DNA from: an uncultured Bacteroidales bacterium
Lineage (GTDB): Bacteria > Bacteroidota > Bacteroidia > Bacteroidales > Bacteroidaceae
Reading direction: 5' to 3'
Assembly: GCA_902781515.1 (NCBI GenBank)
Contig: CACZJU010000001.1
Coordinates: 186,001 to 250,000 of the forward strand
Length of the DNA stretch: 64,000 bases
Both the position numbers and the translations under genes were made by a program. Shown one piece after another: positions 35,521 through 50,555 of this stretch (its first letter is position 1; every line of letters begins with the position of its first letter). The notes beneath the pieces were generated by a model that saw only the letters and a list, made by a program, of their open reading frames with translations, was not told the DNA's origin and did not search any database.

Positions 35521-36200
35521 TGCTCCTGCGCATACAGAAATTTCTCAGAGGGATTGTGCTCCTGTTCTTTGGGAGTACAATCCTTTTTGTTTTGCTCTAT
35601 CGCTGGTGTCCCGTATATGTAACGCCGCTGATGGTGATTCGTTGCACGCAGCAGGTGTGGCATGGCGAGAAAATTCGTCTGCGCCACCATTGGGTGCCGA
35701 TGGAGCAGATTTCACCCTCGCTGGCAGTGGCTGTGATGGCCAGTGAGGACCAGCTTTTCCTCGAACACCACGGGTTCGACTTCAATGCCATAGGACAGGC
35801 CATCAAGGAACGCCAGAGCGGCAAACGGAAGCGCGGTGCCTCCACTATCAGTCAGCAGGCGGCCAAGAACGTGTTCCTGTGGCCCGGCGGAGGTTGGTTT
35901 CGCAAGGGACTGGAAGTGTATTTCACGGCACTCATAGAGCTTGTGTGGGGCAAGGAACGCATCATGGAGGTCTATCTCAACTCCATAGAGATGGGCGACG
36001 GCATTTATGGTGCCGAGGCTGTGGCACAACTGCATTTCGGTTACGAGGCTAGCAGGCTCACGCGGGCAAACTGTGCCCTCATTGCTGCTACATTGCCCAA
36101 TCCGCTCCGCTACAGTTCCAAGAATCCCTCGTCGTACATTCTTCGCCGCCAGACTTGGATTCTCAATCAAATGCGCTACGTTGAAAGAATGAAGGAATGA
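35520..36200 (+). CDS. mtgA: Monofunctional peptidoglycan glycosyltransferase
   Basis: This GT51 enzyme polymerises lipid II into glycan strands at the inner membrane. A single N-terminal membrane helix ([16 protein letters not shown]) is followed by the catalytic motifs [15 protein letters not shown] (catalytic Glu), [16 protein letters not shown] and [20 protein letters not shown]. The 226 residues match MtgA. There is no transpeptidase domain. It overlaps the next gene by 4 bp (ATGA), and its last codons (VERMKE) lie in the left part of a duplicated module that recurs after the next gene. Confidence 0.95.
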
Positions 36201-36308
36201 GGAAGGGACGTAATATAATGAATAATGGGAAGTGGAGGAAGTGTGTAATAATGCTTTCTCATTTTCTCATTTTCTCATTCTCTCATTCTCTTTTCGCGCA
36301 AACCGACA
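36180..36308 (+). repeat. Duplicated module, copy A (gene end, gap and signal peptide)
   Basis: This is about 129 bp, closely matched by 37061-37197. It covers the last codons of mtgA, the overlap with the next gene and that gene's signal peptide. The left arm carries octamers of the gaaagaat type and the right arm ttctcatt octamers (36256-36294); the two arms are roughly inverse complements. Confidence 0.85.
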
Positions 36309-37081: not shown

Positions 37082-37197
37082 AAAAATGAGGAAGGGTAGT
37101 AAAATAATAAATAATGGAAAGTGGAGGAAGTGTGTAATAATGCTTTCTCATTTTCTCATTCTCTCATTCTCTCATTCTCTTTTCGCGCAAACCGACA
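37061..37197 (+). repeat. Duplicated module, copy B
   Basis: This is the second copy of the 36180-36308 module, covering the last codons of the DUF1460 gene (VEKMKE), the gap and the signal peptide of the Plug-like gene. The octamers ttctcatt and ctctcatt (two each, 37145-37176) form the signal-peptide core. The copy numbers of individual octamer variants differ from copy A. Confidence 0.85.
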
Positions 37198-38343: not shown

Positions 38344-38607
38344 TTAAATCAGGCCTATTTCCTGCCACTGCTTTACAACGGCCTCGGCATCCTTGCGGGC
38401 GGTTGCTTCGTCAACTTCGTATTCATCGGTCAGCAGCTTTACCATGTCCTCAACCTCAAAGTCGCGGTCGAGCAGTCCTTTCCACAGCAGCGTGGCACTT
38501 TCGTTCAGACTGATGATTTTGCTGAAATCGATGTTCTTGAAACCTGTGGCAACGATGATATTCTCGCCACAAATTGTACGCAGTTGGAATCCTTCCTTTA
38601 TTCTCAT
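38344..38607 (-). CDS. PqqD-family peptide-binding protein
   Basis: This is an 87-residue stand-alone PqqD-like winged-helix protein. Such proteins bind leader peptides of ribosomally made, modified peptides and deliver them to enzymes. Typical features are MRIKEGFQLRTICGENIIV, the LNESATLLWKGL helix and the YEVDEATARKDAEAVVKQW helix. The start overlaps the upstream peptidase gene by 4 bp. It belongs to an operon with an HPr-kinase-like protein and an S24/S26 peptidase. No radical-SAM enzyme and no obvious precursor peptide are visible next to it. Confidence 0.85.
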   Translation of the reverse strand: MRIKEGFQLRTICGENIIVATGFKNIDFSKIISLNESATLLWKGLLDRDFEVEDMVKLLTDEYEVDEATARKDAEAVVKQWQEIGLI

Positions 38608-39134
38608 ATTATAGCCTTATAAACAAATAACAAATATCTACGGATGGGCAGGAGGCGGCGCCAGATGCGAATGCGACGCTGAAGACGAGGGTCGCTGGCC
38701 AATAGCGTGCGGCGCGGACGCAGGTAGTGCGTGACAATGCCTGCAACGTCCTGTCGCTGGCACGATTCCGTTCCCTGCACGTTGCCATCGCCCATCAGAG
38801 TCACTTGATCGCCATCGATACTGATGATGCGGTGCAGTACGTAGTGTCCTGGTTCTATTTCTGCCAAAACGGCATCACCTATGTTGAGTTCGGTGGGTGG
38901 AGCTAGGATTACGCGGTCGCGCTGATGTTCGAGGAACGGGCGCATACTGTAACCCTTGACGGATATGGTAGCGGTGTGTCCTTCACGAATCATGTCACGG
39001 GCAAGACCCAGTAACACGTGGTTGGGCAGTTCACGACGAGCCTCTGTCGGCTCAACTCCGTTTCTCTTGCGGTAGTTGGCACGAACAGGCGTCATTACCC
39101 CTCGCATTATCTTTCTCGCTATCTCTTTAACCAT
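38604..39134 (-). CDS. S24/S26-type peptidase (signal-peptidase-like)
   Basis: This is a 176-residue protein with a LexA/signal-peptidase fold. The nucleophile Ser63 is in VKGYSMRPFL; DRVILAPP and IGDAVLAEIE follow, then YVLHRIISIDGD with His101 and LMGDGNVQGTE. The Ser...His arrangement resembles the eukaryotic/archaeal (Sec11/SipW) signal peptidases rather than the bacterial Ser-Lys type. The basic C-terminus ends in a hydrophobic stretch (YLLFVYKAII). It could process a peptide bound by the neighbouring PqqD protein, which is inference. The gap to the upstream kinase gene is a heptamer array. Confidence 0.75.
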   Translation of the reverse strand: MVKEIARKIMRGVMTPVRANYRKRNGVEPTEARRELPNHVLLGLARDMIREGHTATISVKGYSMRPFLEHQRDRVILAPPTELNIGDAVLAEIEPGHYVLHRIISIDGDQVTLMGDGNVQGTESCQRQDVAGIVTHYLRPRRTLLASDPRLQRRIRIWRRLLPIRRYLLFVYKAII

Positions 39135-39176
39135 TCACCCTTAATCCCAATTCTTAATTCTTAATTCTTAAATTTT
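39132..39176. repeat. Heptamer array between kinase-like and peptidase genes
   Basis: Units cattcac, ccttaat, cccaatt, cttaatt, cttaatt, cttaaat run from the peptidase start codon into the last codons of the kinase-like gene. Confidence 0.75.
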
Positions 39177-40058
39177 AATTCCAACTGTGCTATAGCACAA
39201 TAAGGCTGCTTCGGCATCGGGCAGACAGCCCAGCTCGTAGATGCTTACACTGCTGATGATGGCAGAAAGCGTGTCGCAGACTCCCAGATAGACGCGCTCG
39301 TCCCACTTCATGCTGCTGGCAGCAGGTAGGAGTTGTGCCAGCGATTCCACTGGCGACATACGACGTATCTCGTTCTTTTTGCGCTGCTGAATGCGTACTA
39401 TGGCTCCTACCGGGGCCTGTATGTTACGATAGCAGGGTGTTTTGCCGCTCCACGGTGTACCGTAGATGATGGGACGTCCATCGACAATGCGCACCACAGG
39501 GTTATCGTCGTTCATGAGGTCGCAGCCGGGTATGTTCTTGTACCACAGATATGTATGGGTGCTCTTGCCCGTACCGCTGGGGGCTGTCATCAGGTAGCCG
39601 TAGCCGTCCTTGCGGATGACACTGGCATGAAGAAGCACCGTCTGCTGTTCGGCAGACGAGAAGGCGTAGGCCATCATGAGTGCATTGTTGAGGGCAAAGT
39701 TGCGGTTCGTCCATTCCTCGCGCAACAACTGTGTGGTACACTTGCGGAAAAGACGGTCGGCGGTAAGTATGCCGCAGAGCTCGCCGGCAGGGTTGCTCAT
39801 CTCTATCTGATAGCCTCCGTCGGGCATGCGATAGACTCCGTAGTTGTTGCCTGAACCGTCGAACTGACCGACCTCGGTGCGTGGTCCGTCGTAGCGATAG
39901 GTGCTGTCAACGGTCATAGTGAAAAGCGGCTCGTCGTCAGACTTGCCTTCTTCCAGTACAAAGGGACGGAAAGACGGGATGAGTTCGGCTGTGGCGTCGG
40001 CATCAGCAAACTGCACGCAAAGCACATGGCCACCAACGCGGTATCGTGCTGTAGTCAT
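39168..40058 (-). CDS. HPr-kinase-like (HprK-related) P-loop protein
   Basis: This is a 296-residue protein related to the C-terminal domain of HPr(Ser) kinase/phosphorylase. The N-terminal part (about 1-125) is a domain of unknown function. The kinase core has LLHASVIRKDGYGYLMTAPSGTGKST (Walker A about 159-167, K165), MNDDNPVVR (acidic pair D184-D185) and YGTPWSGKTP. Related kinases encoded beside PqqD proteins occur in HprK-related systems and in lasso-peptide clusters, where they phosphorylate precursor peptides. It overlaps the upstream secreted-protein gene by 4 bp. Its substrate is not known. Confidence 0.8.
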   Translation of the reverse strand: MTTARYRVGGHVLCVQFADADATAELIPSFRPFVLEEGKSDDEPLFTMTVDSTYRYDGPRTEVGQFDGSGNNYGVYRMPDGGYQIEMSNPAGELCGILTADRLFRKCTTQLLREEWTNRNFALNNALMMAYAFSSAEQQTVLLHASVIRKDGYGYLMTAPSGTGKSTHTYLWYKNIPGCDLMNDDNPVVRIVDGRPIIYGTPWSGKTPCYRNIQAPVGAIVRIQQRKKNEIRRMSPVESLAQLLPAASSMKWDERVYLGVCDTLSAIISSVSIYELGCLPDAEAALLCYSTVGIKI

Positions 40059-40522
40059 TTCTTGGGTGTGGTTTTTATGCTGTCGGAGGGCTCGGGTGAT
40101 GTCTCTATGATTTCGCTATCGACCCATTCTTCAGGCTCGAAACGAAACTCATCGACACCAAGCGGTTGTAAAGTCACAGCCTTGCGACTGCGATATGAAT
40201 TGCGTATCTTCTGATACTTCTTTTCGGCCTTTACCTTATTCTTGTCGTAGAAGACTGTGCAGGTCATGTGCTCGCGCATCTGCTTCGCTACAAGATGGTT
40301 GTTGAGCTGCAGGGTGTAGAGCGAGCGGTCGGCAAGGAACCCGTTGGGCATAACGTATGCGTCAACTGCTTGCAAGTCGGTCATTACCACGGTGGAATCG
40401 GTGAATGAGCAAGCCATGCCGAACATATACACACGTTGTGGCTTGGGCTTGACAGGAGCTGCCATCAGCGTGGTAACTGTGGCTGCAATGAATATGAGGG
40501 CCAGTATGGTACGGCGCATCAT
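40055..40522 (-). CDS. Secreted protein of unknown function in the rpoD/HprK operon
   Basis: This is a 155-residue protein I cannot assign. A signal peptide ([19 protein letters not shown]) is followed by a mature domain with [37 protein letters not shown] and [22 protein letters not shown], then a basic and an acidic tail ([14 protein letters not shown]). It overlaps rpoD by 4 bp and the kinase-like gene by 4 bp, so its translation is coupled on both sides. Periplasmic or outer-membrane location is likely. Confidence 0.7.
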
Positions 40523-41379
40523 CCGAGGTATGATTTCAGAAGTTTATTCTTTGAGTTCTGACGCAGACGGCGTATGGCCTTTTCCTTGATTTGGCGCACA
40601 CGTTCGCGAGTGAGATTGAATTCGTCGCCAATCTCCTCAAGCGTCATTTCCTGACGACCGATGCCGAAGAACATCTGTATGATGGCTTTCTCGCGCTCGG
40701 TAAGTGTGTCGAGGGCGCGGTCTATCTCACGCGCCAGACTCTCGTTCACCAATGTGCGGTCTGCCATGGGACTGTCATCGTTCACAAGCACGTCAAGCAG
40801 CGAGTTGTCCTCACCTTCCACGAAGGGGGCGTCAACGGAAATGTGACGACCGCTGACCTTCAGTGTGTCGCTGATTTTGTCAACGGGGATGTCCAGTTCC
40901 TCTGCCAGTTCATCGGGACTGGGACGGCGTTCGTTCTCCTGCTCGAACTTGCTGTAGGCCTTGCTGATTTTATTCAGTGAACCCACCTGATTCAGGGGTA
41001 AACGCACGATACGGCTCTGTTCGGCCAGAGCCTGCAGAATGCTTTGACGAATCCACCAAACAGCATACGAAATGAATTTGAAACCGCGTGTCTCGTCGAA
41101 CTTCTCTGCGGCCTTGATAAGACCCAAGTTGCCTTCGTTGATAAGGTCGGGGAGCGAAAGACCTTGGTTCTGGTATTGCTTGGCTACGCTGACTACGAAG
41201 CGCAGATTGGCCTTCGTGAGCTTCTCCAAAGCGGCACGGTCGCCCTTGCGGATGCGCTGGGCCAGTTCCACCTCTTCTTCCACAACGATTAGGTCCTCGC
41301 GACCAATCTCCTGCAGGTATTTATCAAGCGACGCGCTTTCGCGATTCGTAATACTTTTGGTGATTTTTAATTGCTTCAT
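40519..41379 (-). CDS. rpoD: Primary RNA polymerase sigma factor RpoD/SigA
   Basis: This is the housekeeping sigma factor that recognises the TAnnTTTG promoters of Bacteroidetes. It starts at ATG 41379 ([21 protein letters not shown]), 26 bp after the -7 box, rather than at upstream in-frame codons. Region 1.2, region 2 ([35 protein letters not shown]), region 3 and region 4 ([29 protein letters not shown]) are all present; the long region 1.1 is absent, as usual for this phylum. It is 286 residues long. It is the first gene of a tightly overlapped operon with the HprK/PqqD genes. Confidence 0.96.
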
Positions 41380-46661: not shown

Positions 46662-49600
46662 TTACTTAACAATGACCTTGTTACCATTAACGATGTAGAG
46701 ACCCTTGATAGCCTTCTGTACACGCTGTCCAGCAACGTTGTAGATAGCCTGCTGCTTCTCTACGTCAGCCTTGATGCCGTTAATTGCATTTTCTTCTTCT
46801 CCATTGCCTAAGTAGTAAAGCTTGAAGTTGTCGAATACAACCCAGTTGCCAGATACATAACCTTCAGCGTTGTCTTTGCGCAGACCAAAAGTCAATGCTT
46901 GGCCTTCAAGCAACGTTATGGAAACTTTGTTCCAATAAAGGTCACATTCTGCATATAAGTTGAAGCCCTTTTGTCCTGATGGAACGTAGAACTCTTCATA
47001 ATCTTCGAATGCAACAGCAATTTCGTTGGAAGTACCATCATCTACCATGCCTGGGTCAAGTTCACCTTCGCTATCTTCGCGTTGGAACATGTTCTTAAGT
47101 ACGGTTGTGCTATCAGCCTCTCCAGCCTGAGCGAACAGATATACGTCCTTACCAAAATTGGGATCGAGAGCGAGTGTGTCAGCCAGTTCCTTGGGTGAGT
47201 TGGCACCACGATTGAAGCCTTGTACCTCAATTACATAGTTACCTGCGGGCAGACCATTCAAAGTCTGTGAGATAGAGAATGTCTTGGTGTCATAGAACTC
47301 ATAGACATGATGTTGATCGTCACTAAATGCACCAGCACCCTGGCCTTCATTCTTACCGCCTTCGCGTTCAATGGTCCAACCGTTAGCGTTGTTGGCAGCT
47401 TTTGCAGTAGCCTCATCGTCGAGGTCATACGCGCCGTTGGCAAGATATTCGGGATCTGTGAAGCTGTTGTTGTAGATGGCAGCTGTGATATCAACAGGGT
47501 TTTCAGCATCGGCAGTATTAATTGCAGGATATGCTACATAGTAAGCCCATTTGTTCTTGAGGTCGTCGATAATCTCTTGCATTCTTTCGTTGTTGGCAAC
47601 CTTGTCGTTAACGGCAACGTCGGCATCAGAAAGAATTTGCGTGTAACCTGGCTCGTCGCTTTCTCCATATTCTTCACTCAGGTATGTGTAAATCAGAGTG
47701 GTATAGTACAGTACCTCAGCAAGGCTATCGGCCTCCTCTGCGTATGCAAATGCCTCTTCGTACAGTGACATTACTTCGCTCATGGCAGCCAAATCGGTCT
47801 TGTCGACAGCGTCGTGCGCATCTTTGGCGCCATTCAGGTAGTCAACGGCTGCTGTAACCTTCTCTACATTCTCATTCCCGTCGAGAATCTCGTCAGCCTG
47901 CTCTCTCATTCCTTCTAGAGCGTCTGCCATGTCATTTGCTTCCATTGCATTGTAGGCAAGTTCGAAGCCATACCATACAACCCAGCAGTTGCTTTCCATT
48001 ACGTCAGCAGTAACACCAAAGGTAAGTTCACCCTTACCGCTTACTACGCTGGATACAGACTTCTGGACGAGTGCTGTGTAGTCTTTGTCGTTGAATATAT
48101 CGTATGCAGCCTTCTGAGAGTTAGGAACATAGGTCGTTCCGCCTTCTTCGAGTGTTGCCCAACCATCAATTGCTTCGTCGGATTCCTTGGCAAGTACTGC
48201 AACATTGGTAAGACCAGTTTTGCTAAAGCCAGCAAATACGGAAGCTTCGGGAGTGTTGCCATCGTCGTAGTTTTCGTAGTTCGCTGCATTAGCGGCGTTG
48301 CGGAAGAATGCCTTAGTGGTGATGGTGTACTTACCTGCGGGCAGACCAGTCAATGTCTGGCTAACAGCAAACGGACTCTGGTTCCATACCTCGGCTGTTC
48401 CGTATTGAGTCTTGAAGTTGCTGGCATCGCCATAGCTCCACTCCTTGTCGGGAACATTGCTACCCTGCTGTACTGTAGTGCTATAAGTGTAGTTCAACTT
48501 GAAGAGTGGCGTGATGTCGAGGTCCTTTGCCAACTTCTCTCCAGAAGCAATGGCTGCGTCCCAAGCCTTCTGTACACCTTCCTTAATAATGGTGGGCAGG
48601 GAAGCGATGGTCTCGTTAATCTGCGCAGTAGTCCAATTGGAGGCAGTCAGTGCAGTAGTAACTTCATCGAGCATAGTGCTCAGTTGGGCACTCAGTGCAG
48701 CATAGGAATCGGCTGTGTACTTATCGGTGGCAGGAATAAGTTCGTCGGTGCGGAAGGCGTTGAGATCTTTGTAAGCCTGAATACTTGCGTTGACGTCTGC
48801 CAGCATGTTCTTAATGGCGTTTGTTGCAGCCTTGTTGGCGTCTGTGTCTTCGCTCTTAGCATCAACCAATGCCTGTCCGTCATTCAGTACGCTGGTGAAC
48901 TGGCTCTTCAGGTCAACATTGAACTGCTCTTCAAGCAATTTCTTACCTCCGTTAACCTGAGAAGTCAGACCCAACAGTGAAGCATTGATGCCTGTACCTA
49001 CATAAATCAGTGAGAAACCATCTATAAATAAGTGAGGTTGTAAATTTGAACCAGCATTATCTTGATCATTTTTTGCTTTATATGCTTGGTATCCTACTGT
49101 AAAGTAACCAGTCGTTTCATCTTCTAATGTGAACTGTACTATATCAGTTGTCCATTCGCCTACTGGAAACTTTCTAGTTTCTCCCAAATACTTAGTGCCA
49201 TTGTTTGAGACGAAACCAATCAAATTTTCTGTAACAGTAAGTGTTCCACCTGCATTATAGTAGGAAATGGTTATGGTGTATTTACCTTTTGGTAAAGATA
49301 CATCCTGCTTGTATTGTGCAACAGCACCCCATGAACTTACGATGCCAAGAACATTGCCTTCGGTGCTACCATTTGACATTTCAGTTGGTACAATGAAGTT
49401 CTTATTACCAAGAAATGCATTACTGCCTAATGCATATACACCAGCTGCAGGACCATTGTTTTTAGTATTCTGTGTCCATCCGGGCACATCGAGCATACTA
49501 TAATTAGTTGTGGCAATACCGTTCTTCTCGCAGTCGTAGTCGTAAGTGCAGATACCGCCTTCGACAGGTGTACCTTCAGAGAAGTGGGGATTTTGGATGA

Positions 49601-50555
49601 AGAATTCGCTAAGGTCGGTCAAACCAGCTTGGTTGCGTTCCTTTTGTGCCTCTATTGCAGCCAGAACCTCTTCGAGTGTTGCGTTGGGATTGTTGTAAAT
49701 ATTCTGTGCAGGGGTGGTGTCAACATTATAAGACTCACCTTCTTCGATAGCTGCAAGTAGCTTTTCCTTGGCCTTGTCTATTTCTACTTGAATGAGGTAG
49801 TTGGGGTCAATCTGATACAGTTCCACAGCATCGATAAAGAGGTGAGGAGCGCTACCAGAACCAGAGTTAAATGCATAACCTAATTGCACGTTGCCAGTGG
49901 TTGCTGCTGCCAACTGGAAGAAAATGGTGTCGTTAGTCCATGTGGTAGCTGGATATGTTGTCTTTGATGACACATAGCTCTTGTCGGCAGTTGCAAATCC
50001 CATGTTGTTCTTTGTCAATGTACCAGTACCAGCGCCGTTAAATACTTTTACAATAAGCATATAGTCGCCAGCGGGCAGGCTAACCTCTTGGGTGTATTTG
50101 ATGTCTGAGCCCCATACAGCTACCATACCAAGAACGTTGTCGCTAGTACAATCGGGACTGTCACTGTCGTATGGAGGAAGATAGTCGCCGCCTAGACCTG
50201 CATTCGAGTCTTCATTTCCACCAGTCCGGTAGGCAAAGATACCTGCAGCCTTTGCATTAGCACCGTCTTCGCGAGCAGGGTCACTGCCGGTGTTCATCAC
50301 TTTGATGTTGTCGGAAGGGTAGTTGGCTGTCCAGCCTTCAATAGGCTGCATACCGAAGAGACCTTCTCCGTCGCTACCTGCCCCATTATCCGGCATGTCG
50401 TAGTCGTAGGTGTTGATTGTTGTCGTAACGGGGTCACCCTGACTGAAATCAGCATTCTGCAACTCAACTTTCTTGATGATGGACGGCGTGTTCTGTGCAT
50501 TGACTGCCAGAACGAACATCCCTGCTACCAGGGAAAAGAGTAGACGTTTTTTCAT
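46662..50555 (-). CDS. Large secreted multidomain protein with T9SS-like tail
   Basis: This is a 1297-residue secreted protein I cannot assign to a function. The signal peptide is MKKRLLFSLVAGMFVLAVNAQ. Two homologous beta-sandwich modules (about 30-255 and 315-540) each run from a QN-x-x-FS-x-G-x-PV start through YDYD, an (E)GW(T) segment and LP-x-G-x-Y to PHLFIDA/G. Alpha-helical linkers (about 255-310, 545-690, 905-1010) separate them from two further modules (about 690-895 and 1030-1250), each with SQTL-x-GLPAG-x-Y. The C-terminus AIYNVAGQRVQKAIKGLYIVNGNKVIVK-like pattern is a type IX sorting-type tail. The modules resemble carbohydrate-binding folds, so glycan binding is a guess. Confidence 0.75.
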   Translation of the reverse strand: MKKRLLFSLVAGMFVLAVNAQNTPSIIKKVELQNADFSQGDPVTTTINTYDYDMPDNGAGSDGEGLFGMQPIEGWTANYPSDNIKVMNTGSDPAREDGANAKAAGIFAYRTGGNEDSNAGLGGDYLPPYDSDSPDCTSDNVLGMVAVWGSDIKYTQEVSLPAGDYMLIVKVFNGAGTGTLTKNNMGFATADKSYVSSKTTYPATTWTNDTIFFQLAAATTGNVQLGYAFNSGSGSAPHLFIDAVELYQIDPNYLIQVEIDKAKEKLLAAIEEGESYNVDTTPAQNIYNNPNATLEEVLAAIEAQKERNQAGLTDLSEFFIQNPHFSEGTPVEGGICTYDYDCEKNGIATTNYSMLDVPGWTQNTKNNGPAAGVYALGSNAFLGNKNFIVPTEMSNGSTEGNVLGIVSSWGAVAQYKQDVSLPKGKYTITISYYNAGGTLTVTENLIGFVSNNGTKYLGETRKFPVGEWTTDIVQFTLEDETTGYFTVGYQAYKAKNDQDNAGSNLQPHLFIDGFSLIYVGTGINASLLGLTSQVNGGKKLLEEQFNVDLKSQFTSVLNDGQALVDAKSEDTDANKAATNAIKNMLADVNASIQAYKDLNAFRTDELIPATDKYTADSYAALSAQLSTMLDEVTTALTASNWTTAQINETIASLPTIIKEGVQKAWDAAIASGEKLAKDLDITPLFKLNYTYSTTVQQGSNVPDKEWSYGDASNFKTQYGTAEVWNQSPFAVSQTLTGLPAGKYTITTKAFFRNAANAANYENYDDGNTPEASVFAGFSKTGLTNVAVLAKESDEAIDGWATLEEGGTTYVPNSQKAAYDIFNDKDYTALVQKSVSSVVSGKGELTFGVTADVMESNCWVVWYGFELAYNAMEANDMADALEGMREQADEILDGNENVEKVTAAVDYLNGAKDAHDAVDKTDLAAMSEVMSLYEEAFAYAEEADSLAEVLYYTTLIYTYLSEEYGESDEPGYTQILSDADVAVNDKVANNERMQEIIDDLKNKWAYYVAYPAINTADAENPVDITAAIYNNSFTDPEYLANGAYDLDDEATAKAANNANGWTIEREGGKNEGQGAGAFSDDQHHVYEFYDTKTFSISQTLNGLPAGNYVIEVQGFNRGANSPKELADTLALDPNFGKDVYLFAQAGEADSTTVLKNMFQREDSEGELDPGMVDDGTSNEIAVAFEDYEEFYVPSGQKGFNLYAECDLYWNKVSITLLEGQALTFGLRKDNAEGYVSGNWVVFDNFKLYYLGNGEEENAINGIKADVEKQQAIYNVAGQRVQKAIKGLYIVNGNKVIVK

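Follow-up and report, generated by a model that had tools for sequence, protein, structure and literature searches.

A kinase, peptidase and PqqD-type triad in Bacteroidaceae as likely trans-acting machinery of a linear phosphopeptide system

Described systems and the triad

The enzymes closest to those considered here are known from Linear Polyphosphorylated Peptides (LPP), which Popov et al. described in May 2026 and which the accessible part of their paper states to be restricted to Bacillota (PMC13381572). According to that part of the paper, LPP clusters occur in 80 of 9173 Bacilli genomes with one to three precursors per cluster, the discrete recognition elements (RREs) of both lasso peptides and LPP bind a YxxP motif, the signal peptidase I (SpI)-like enzyme LppS requires the RRE LppB for cleavage, and the kinase LppK phosphorylates serine 3 of the core several times, the LppA core beginning A-Q-S (PMC13381572). 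For the lasso peptide Bsf, the parts of the source available describe an enhancement of the kinase BsfK by BsfB1 and a YxxPxL leader with Tyr at -17 and Pro at -14 (PMC10368454). Here we compare with these systems a triad of minus-strand genes for an HprK-like kinase, a signal-peptidase-like enzyme and a PqqD-type protein, at 38344-40058 of a 64,000-nucleotide stretch of an uncultured Bacteroidales bacterium (assembly GCA_902781515.1, contig CACZJU010000001.1), which as a whole is called the window below.

The triad is likely to act in trans and to mature the precursors of an LPP-like system of Bacteroidota for ribosomally synthesized and post-translationally modified peptides (RiPPs). In Prevotella-type gut bacteria, it most likely trims and phosphorylates small peptides encoded across the genome. 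As in LPP, a SpI-like, archaeal-type signal peptidase with Ser, His and Asp stands beside a discrete RRE and an HprK-like kinase (assigned here by sequence and structure model), and the peptides have a YxxP leader followed by a conserved serine and a variable core, with no cyclase seen. Relatives of the locus share the ABC exporter, nucleoside triphosphate (NTP) transferase and capsule-locus context of LPP, and some of them have precursors near the enzyme genes, as LPP clusters do. In contrast to LPP of Bacillota, however, the present system belongs to Bacteroidota, and its precursors, rather than numbering one to three within the cluster, are dispersed in trans, with 11 in the genome of the window, each behind a large protein. 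LPP clusters contain an NTP transferase (PF14907) and an MsbA-like exporter, whereas the triad adjoins rpoD and neither has a match in the window; the LPP leader consensus HQ...FET is absent from the peptides here; and kinase homologues are found in 122 of 151 genomes of the family, compared with the 80 of 9173 Bacilli genomes for LPP. Because some defining features of LPP were looked for and found to be absent, we regard the system of the window as a variant that resembles LPP without belonging to it.

Phosphorylated lasso peptides (paeninodin, pseudomycoidin and Bsf) likewise combine a B1-type RRE, a YxxP- or WxxP-type leader and an HprK-like kinase, as given in the accessible parts of the sources (PMC8498205, PMC10368454; for WxxP, PMC13381572), and their clusters hold a PF14907 nucleotidyltransferase and an ABC transporter, as do relatives of the present locus (PMC8498205, PMC10368454). 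Lasso systems use a B2 transglutaminase-like peptidase, whereas the enzyme here is signal-peptidase-like and no lasso cyclase stands at the locus. In the window genome (2.46 Mb in 46 contigs, 86% complete), the B2 leader peptidase (PF13471) has no match at E 1, and a canonical lasso cluster was rejected on that ground. Matches to Asn_synthase in this genome comprise one 562-aa frame on contig C4 with two strong stretches and two weak matches below the cut-off; the full-length asparagine synthase is probably a housekeeping enzyme.

An earlier note on this DNA, made from the letters and an open reading frame (ORF) list, had put the locus forward as a candidate for an undescribed system. In the strict sense this fails because the LPP paper already contains the same enzyme set (PMC13381572); as regards Bacteroidota it stands, in that no report of the system from this phylum appeared in the literature searched, which took in few subscription papers and no preprints. 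The accessible main text of the LPP paper has no word starting with "Bacteroid" (PMC13381572), and no such system is seen in the available part of a survey of Bacteroidales RiPPs (PMC10352776). With an LPP-type enzyme set in many Bacteroidaceae, the family would reach into a phylum that is dominant in gut and rumen, and a large class of small proteins that lack a Pfam or NCBIfam family would gain a testable set of enzymes.

The genes of the triad and their proposed functional residues are as follows.

38344..38607, minus strand: PqqD-type discrete RRE, 87 aa, which is proposed to bind the Y-x-x-P leader (PF05402, 7e-16)
38604..39134, minus strand: S26B / archaeal-type signal-peptidase-like enzyme, 176 aa, proposed leader peptidase (family matches and conserved residues)
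38946..38948, minus strand: codon of peptidase Ser63 (G-Y-S-M-R-P), proposed nucleophile (99% of 81 sequences)
38832..38834, minus strand: codon of peptidase His101 (V-L-H-R), proposed base (99% of 81 sequences)
38787..38789, minus strand: codon of peptidase Asp116 (G-D-G-N; 100% of 81 sequences)
39168..40058, minus strand: HprK-like kinase of the PEPCK/HPrK superfamily, 296 aa (motifs and predicted fold)
39555..39578, minus strand: kinase Walker A, residues 161-168, S-G-T-G-K-S-T-H (8 of 8 invariant in alignment A1; 161-167 invariant in A5)
39504..39509, minus strand: kinase Asp184-Asp185 (M-N-D-D-N-P), second acidic motif (invariant in A1 and A5)

The earlier note had seen in these genes a pathway that matures and phosphorylates peptides, with a PqqD-type protein to bind them, and the predicted structures are in keeping with this. 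The PqqD model has as its best matches in the PDB the complexes of lasso B1 proteins with their leaders, whose ligands also bear YxxP, and fold and motif would agree in pointing to a YxxP leader here; the PqqD sequence is conserved among relatives. The peptidase matches Peptidase_S24 (PF00717, 1.4e-5) and, below the respective cut-offs, S26 (PF10502, 0.0014) and the archaeal-type signal peptidase model TIGR02228 (9e-5). By motif, its Ser63 would be the counterpart of S29 in LppS, and no N-terminal membrane anchor is seen on reading its sequence. The kinase has no Pfam match and weak matches at most by sequence in the PDB (best E 0.05); its structure model adopts a PEPCK/HPrK fold. It resembles the HprK-related kinase A family (TIGR04352) but differs from members of such systems in matching the model partially, over residues 129-194 (1e-6), with 27.9 bits that lie far below the curated cut-off of 200. 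Kinase alignment A1 holds 19 sequences from 56 loci, A5 holds 29 of 81 sequences and a further alignment, A4, 27 of 77. The window genome has a single kinase homologue and a single PF05402 match.

A scan of named genomes with A1 gave at least 590 matches, of which the best 80 loci were taken, so that the sample leans to close relatives; among the named relatives found, metagenome-assembled genomes of ruminant Bacteroidaceae come closest. To the 80 loci we added 40 further Bacteroidaceae loci, picked by hand, in most cases one to three from each genus with weaker matches. The kinase gene is followed by the peptidase gene in 79 of the 80 loci of other species and the peptidase gene by the PqqD gene in 75, so that for these three the earlier expectation of genes that stay together is borne out. 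Because the triad is kept while its other neighbors vary, we take kinase, peptidase and PqqD as the unit, which exporter and nucleotidyltransferase join in other loci.

A dispersed peptide family and its partners

The proposed substrates belong to an unnamed peptide family with the leader M-K-K-x-Y-x-x-P...A-x-S, which first surfaced around cluster types unlike that of the window. With repeat copies counted, 27,934 ORFs yielded 18 matches to an N-terminal profile (17 below 0.01), and an extended profile found 131 matches at E<0.1 in 35,822 ORFs, with overlapping and repeat copies counted; neither had a match among shuffled ORFs. Unique peptides at E<0.01 number 93. Alignment A2 consists of 15 peptides, two repeat copies of one peptide and a match in locus L152 (E 0.24) having been dropped from the 18, and A3 consists of 17, of which 7 are from the window genome and 10 are among the 15 in A2. 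The A2 peptides have no convincing Pfam or NCBIfam family, the best E values being 0.019 and 0.11.

The pattern [YF]xxP stands near the start of all 93 peptides, with Tyr in 92. Composition was anchored on this pattern and the peptides were chosen by a profile that includes these columns; the presence of the pattern in all 93 stands as a result, and the exact proline counts are not independent of it. After YxxP, V/I and E alternate. Counted from the Tyr, Ala is found at +17 in 62 of the 93 and Ser at +19 in 69, and the information content reaches 2.46 bits at +19 and does not exceed 0.73 at any position from +20 to +33. With a shift of one residue allowed, A/C-x-S/T begins at +17 or +18 in 75 peptides and A/C-x-A/G in one. 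The tails are acidic, with a median net charge of -5, and 67 of 88 have a Trp within the last 15 residues.

The earlier note had seen no precursor, which holds for the window, where the peptide profile has no match, and fails for the genome. A scan of the window genome with A2 pointed to eight places, of which seven read as members of the family and one, C4:56293, does not; with A3, it gave 11 matches, and another genome has up to 25. These precursors, of about 50-76 aa, are encoded away from the triad: one of them shares its contig but at a great distance, and the others are on different contigs. The genome-wide look for small precursor-like genes that the earlier note had proposed has thus turned up a YxxP peptide family, in trans and co-occurring with the kinase. 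A scan for small intergenic ORFs in the 80 named and 20 other loci found no family across more than three loci, and we regard it as insensitive because it missed peptides later found in the same 20 loci. Among 60 loci (L137-L156 and L158-L197), 17 have a peptide, which in 10 lies within 450 bp of a module gene. A weak twelfth candidate of the window genome (L207:2944-3177, plus strand, E 0.23) sits right behind a large protein with the C-terminus described next.

Each of the 11 peptide genes of the window genome follows, on the same strand and after 1-72 bp, a gene for a protein of 649-1500 aa, and these large proteins have a C-terminal pattern in common, for example YNLAGQRVQKAQKGLYIVNGRKVVVK. 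Reading of their N-termini suggests that the partners are apparently secreted. Three of the seven scanned have Pfam domains above cut-off, of chitobiase C-terminal, Fn3, BACON and Big types. In 22 loci, 28 of 34 such proteins are followed by a peptide, compared with other intergenic ORFs of 40-90 aa in that position in 10 of 194, although 28/34 is not an unbiased rate because the loci were chosen. Loci of 7,000 bases or more contain 68 distinct peptides; for 53 of these, a protein of 400 aa or more is encoded on the same strand no farther than 120 bp away, and for the other 15 none is.

The common C-terminus seems to resemble sorting domains of the type IX secretion system (T9SS); six C-terminal stretches of 100 residues had no match to a T9SS model in Pfam or NCBIfam up to E 10, and the name was dropped. 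The window itself encodes a 1297-aa protein with a partner-type C-terminus (YNVAGQRVQKAIKGLYIVNGNKVIVK; 46662-50555, minus strand) and, as stated, no matching peptide.

The order of genes differs in one genome, G266, in which an island of about 55 kb (loci L243-L245, G266:C1:1795000-1854000) holds exporter, kinase, peptidase, PqqD and nucleotidyltransferase genes together with nine peptides read as members of the family. These nine lie 6-89 bp upstream of genes for proteins of 744-1104 aa with lipoprotein-like N-termini, one of which is cut in L142 and has 1042 aa in L244.

Across genomes, the peptides go with the kinase. Matches to the kinase, capsule-type homologues included, are found in 122 of 151 Bacteroidaceae genomes, and peptides are found in 109 of these 122 vs 5 of the 29 kinase-negative genomes (Fisher 5e-14; both in 109, kinase alone in 13, peptide alone in 5, neither in 24, and hence 114 peptide-positive). 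In eight genera, kinase-positive genomes occur alongside kinase-negative ones, and the contrast within these genera is 35 of 36 vs 5 of 22 (Cochran-Mantel-Haenszel p 1.7e-6). PqqD has no match in 26 of the 29 kinase-negative genomes and is found in the other three, one of which, G161, is peptide-positive. In a sample of 119 genomes drawn evenly across the order, 19 have the kinase and nine the peptidase, all nine among those 19. All eight peptide-positive genomes of this sample are kinase-positive (p 9.6e-8; 4e-6 without the window genome and G019, a source of the training set), and six of the eight also have the peptidase.

Proposed pathway and alternative readings

In the pathway we propose, precursors would be translated from the dispersed genes, each adjoining one that encodes a large and apparently secreted partner. 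The PqqD-type protein would bind the leader through Y-x-x-P, as its predicted fold and the motif suggest. The HprK-like kinase would then attach phosphate to a hydroxyl residue, for which the conserved Ser of A-x-S (Y+17 to Y+19) is the most likely candidate. If the leader has the geometry of lasso peptides, with Tyr at -17 and Pro at -14, this Ser would be core residue 3; with Tyr at -17, the core would open with A-x-S as residues 1-3, and the Ser would be the phosphate acceptor. The S26B-type peptidase, by analogy with LppS, would next remove the leader, and the product would be a linear, acidic core of about 30 aa, often ending in tryptophan. In relatives, an MsbA-like ABC exporter and the PF14907 nucleotidyltransferase could complete the pathway.

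One step of this scheme has a rival that we rate as doubtful and that is compatible with the other steps. A-x-S may be the -3/-1 site of the S26 peptidase, which would cut after the Ser at Y+19, with the kinase acting elsewhere in the core. Small residues at -3 and -1 fit the general preference of signal peptidases, and conservation falls right after the Ser. However, the second of the two conserved positions is Ser/Thr and hardly ever Ala/Gly, as expected of a phosphate acceptor, and we favor the acceptor over a cleavage site because of this prevalence (75 vs 1 of 93). Furthermore, the Tyr of lasso leaders stands at -17, and that of LPP at -16 in its own numbering, with the phosphorylated Ser3 in an A-Q-S core.

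What the peptides do can be addressed through their pairing with the large proteins, which leads us to speculate that the product acts with or on its partner at the cell surface. More broadly, we put forward, as a tentative proposal that may well prove wrong, a distributed RiPP system in which one triad matures a repertoire of linear phosphopeptides, each the dedicated small partner (a tag, ligand or modifier) of a co-encoded large secreted or surface protein. If true, this would be a cell-surface system and no antibiotic pathway, and it would give LPP-type peptides a role. LPP are reported as patchy and their role as open; the pairing of peptide and partner offers an initial clue to the possible purpose of such peptides, and makes the question of LPP function concrete, namely what the peptide does with its partner protein.

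Several observations weigh against a pathway that joins the triad to the peptides. At E 0.01, 13 kinase-positive genomes of the family lack a peptide, and the kinase counts take in capsule-type homologues without peptidase. Conversely, five kinase-negative genomes (G161, G184, G196, G229 and G256; completeness 86-99%) have peptides, the last four with no match to kinase or PqqD. In the order sample, three of nine peptidase-positive genomes (G051, G078 and G087) are without a peptide, and the peptide-positive G038 and G085 match the kinase only weakly and the peptidase not at all. The training set of the peptide profile came from kinase-positive genomes, and among the 80 Prevotella-type close loci a peptide is present in only two (L061 and L067). 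As to export, the exporter profile has no match in the 64 kb of the window, which is what that search covered, and the nucleotidyltransferase (PF14907) has none in the window genome at 86% completeness.

Part of this evidence would suit a reading in which peptides and triad are unrelated, the peptides being accessories of the large proteins, the triad acting on an unseen substrate, and their co-occurrence reflecting ancestry and lifestyle. The distance of the window genome's own peptides from the triad, their scarcity in the stretches fetched around close loci and the five kinase-negative genomes with peptides all speak for it. We nonetheless consider it unlikely: the contrast persists within genera and in all eight peptide-positive genomes across the order, peptides stand beside enzyme clusters in other genomes, at 10 loci as near as 450 bp or less, and the leader motif is a known ligand motif of the closest solved relatives of PqqD. 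It is very improbable that the triad is a remnant of a full LPP- or capsule-type cluster that has lost exporter, nucleotidyltransferase and precursor and is now regulatory, for example of capsule, a reading that draws on the seven capsule-linked PqqD-nucleotidyltransferase-HprK-Wza-Wzc clusters in the family and on the missing export and transferase matches noted above, but sits poorly with the conserved kinase and peptidase motifs and PqqD sequence, the breadth of kinase homologues (122/151) and the 11 precursor matches in the same genome.

Neighboring and accessory genes

Upstream of the triad, two further minus-strand genes precede the kinase.

40055..40522, minus strand: SP155, 155 aa, with a signal-like N-terminus and no known family; a neighbor that is probably outside the module
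40519..41379, minus strand: RpoD-type sigma factor, 286 aa from the ATG at 41379, with sigma-70 regions 1.2, 2, 3 and 4; genomic neighbor

An ORF check reproduced exactly the layout given by the earlier note, with 4-bp overlaps at 38604-38607, 40055-40058 and 40519-40522 and a gap of 33 bp at 39135-39167, the sole one among the five genes. The gap is an AT-rich stretch of AATTAAG-like units. For the sigma factor, the ORF list has a longer, TTG-started frame that reaches 41499.

The five genes do not make up one system, as had been suggested. In 67 of the 80 close loci, SP155, which has no Pfam or NCBIfam match, immediately precedes the kinase, in seven it is one gene apart, and RpoD precedes SP155 in 53; across genera, SP155 is present in 12 of the 40 loci and never alongside the exporter. 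On these neighborhood counts, RpoD and SP155 were rejected as members of the system. SP155 was also rejected as a precursor, being conserved along the entire protein and never found with an exporter in the 40 loci. A MurF-type gene takes its place before the kinase in L091, L094, L099 and L116 (by clustering; L094 was scanned with Pfam), and a clostripain-type gene lies between SP155 and the kinase in seven loci, L083-L088 and L125 (PF03415 in L083, the rest by clustering). The SP155 family has the pattern VYMFG...D[ST]...FL.DR..Y..QL and is often tied to rpoD in Prevotella-type genomes.

Accessory genes vary among the 40 Bacteroidaceae loci, of which 18 have the ABC exporter and nine the PF14907-type nucleotidyltransferase, as found with our own profiles (one example of each was scanned with Pfam); the nucleotidyltransferase profile has no match in the window. 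A capsule-type arrangement of PqqD, nucleotidyltransferase, kinase, Wza and Wzc without an S26 peptidase is present in three of the 40 loci and in seven of the 60 fetched. These capsule-type loci are a second, capsule-linked branch. In L138, L143, L145, L147, L161, L163 and L170, the PqqD-nucleotidyltransferase-HprK genes lie directly before the Wza/Wzc-type capsule-export genes, and in all seven stretches a YxxP peptide is encoded at a distance of 21 to 1,701 bp from Wzc.

At L131:12189-13964, the peptidase gene is on the strand opposite to the kinase and some 4.5 kb away from it, apparently through an inversion, and from its sequence looks fused behind a glycosyltransferase-like N-terminal part (497 aa). 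Elsewhere in the window, at 36197-36300 and 37086-37190 on the plus strand, two adjacent genes have a nearly identical N-terminal signal-peptide segment, resembling a duplicated cassette, and genes at L210 of the same genome also have signal-peptide segments in common.

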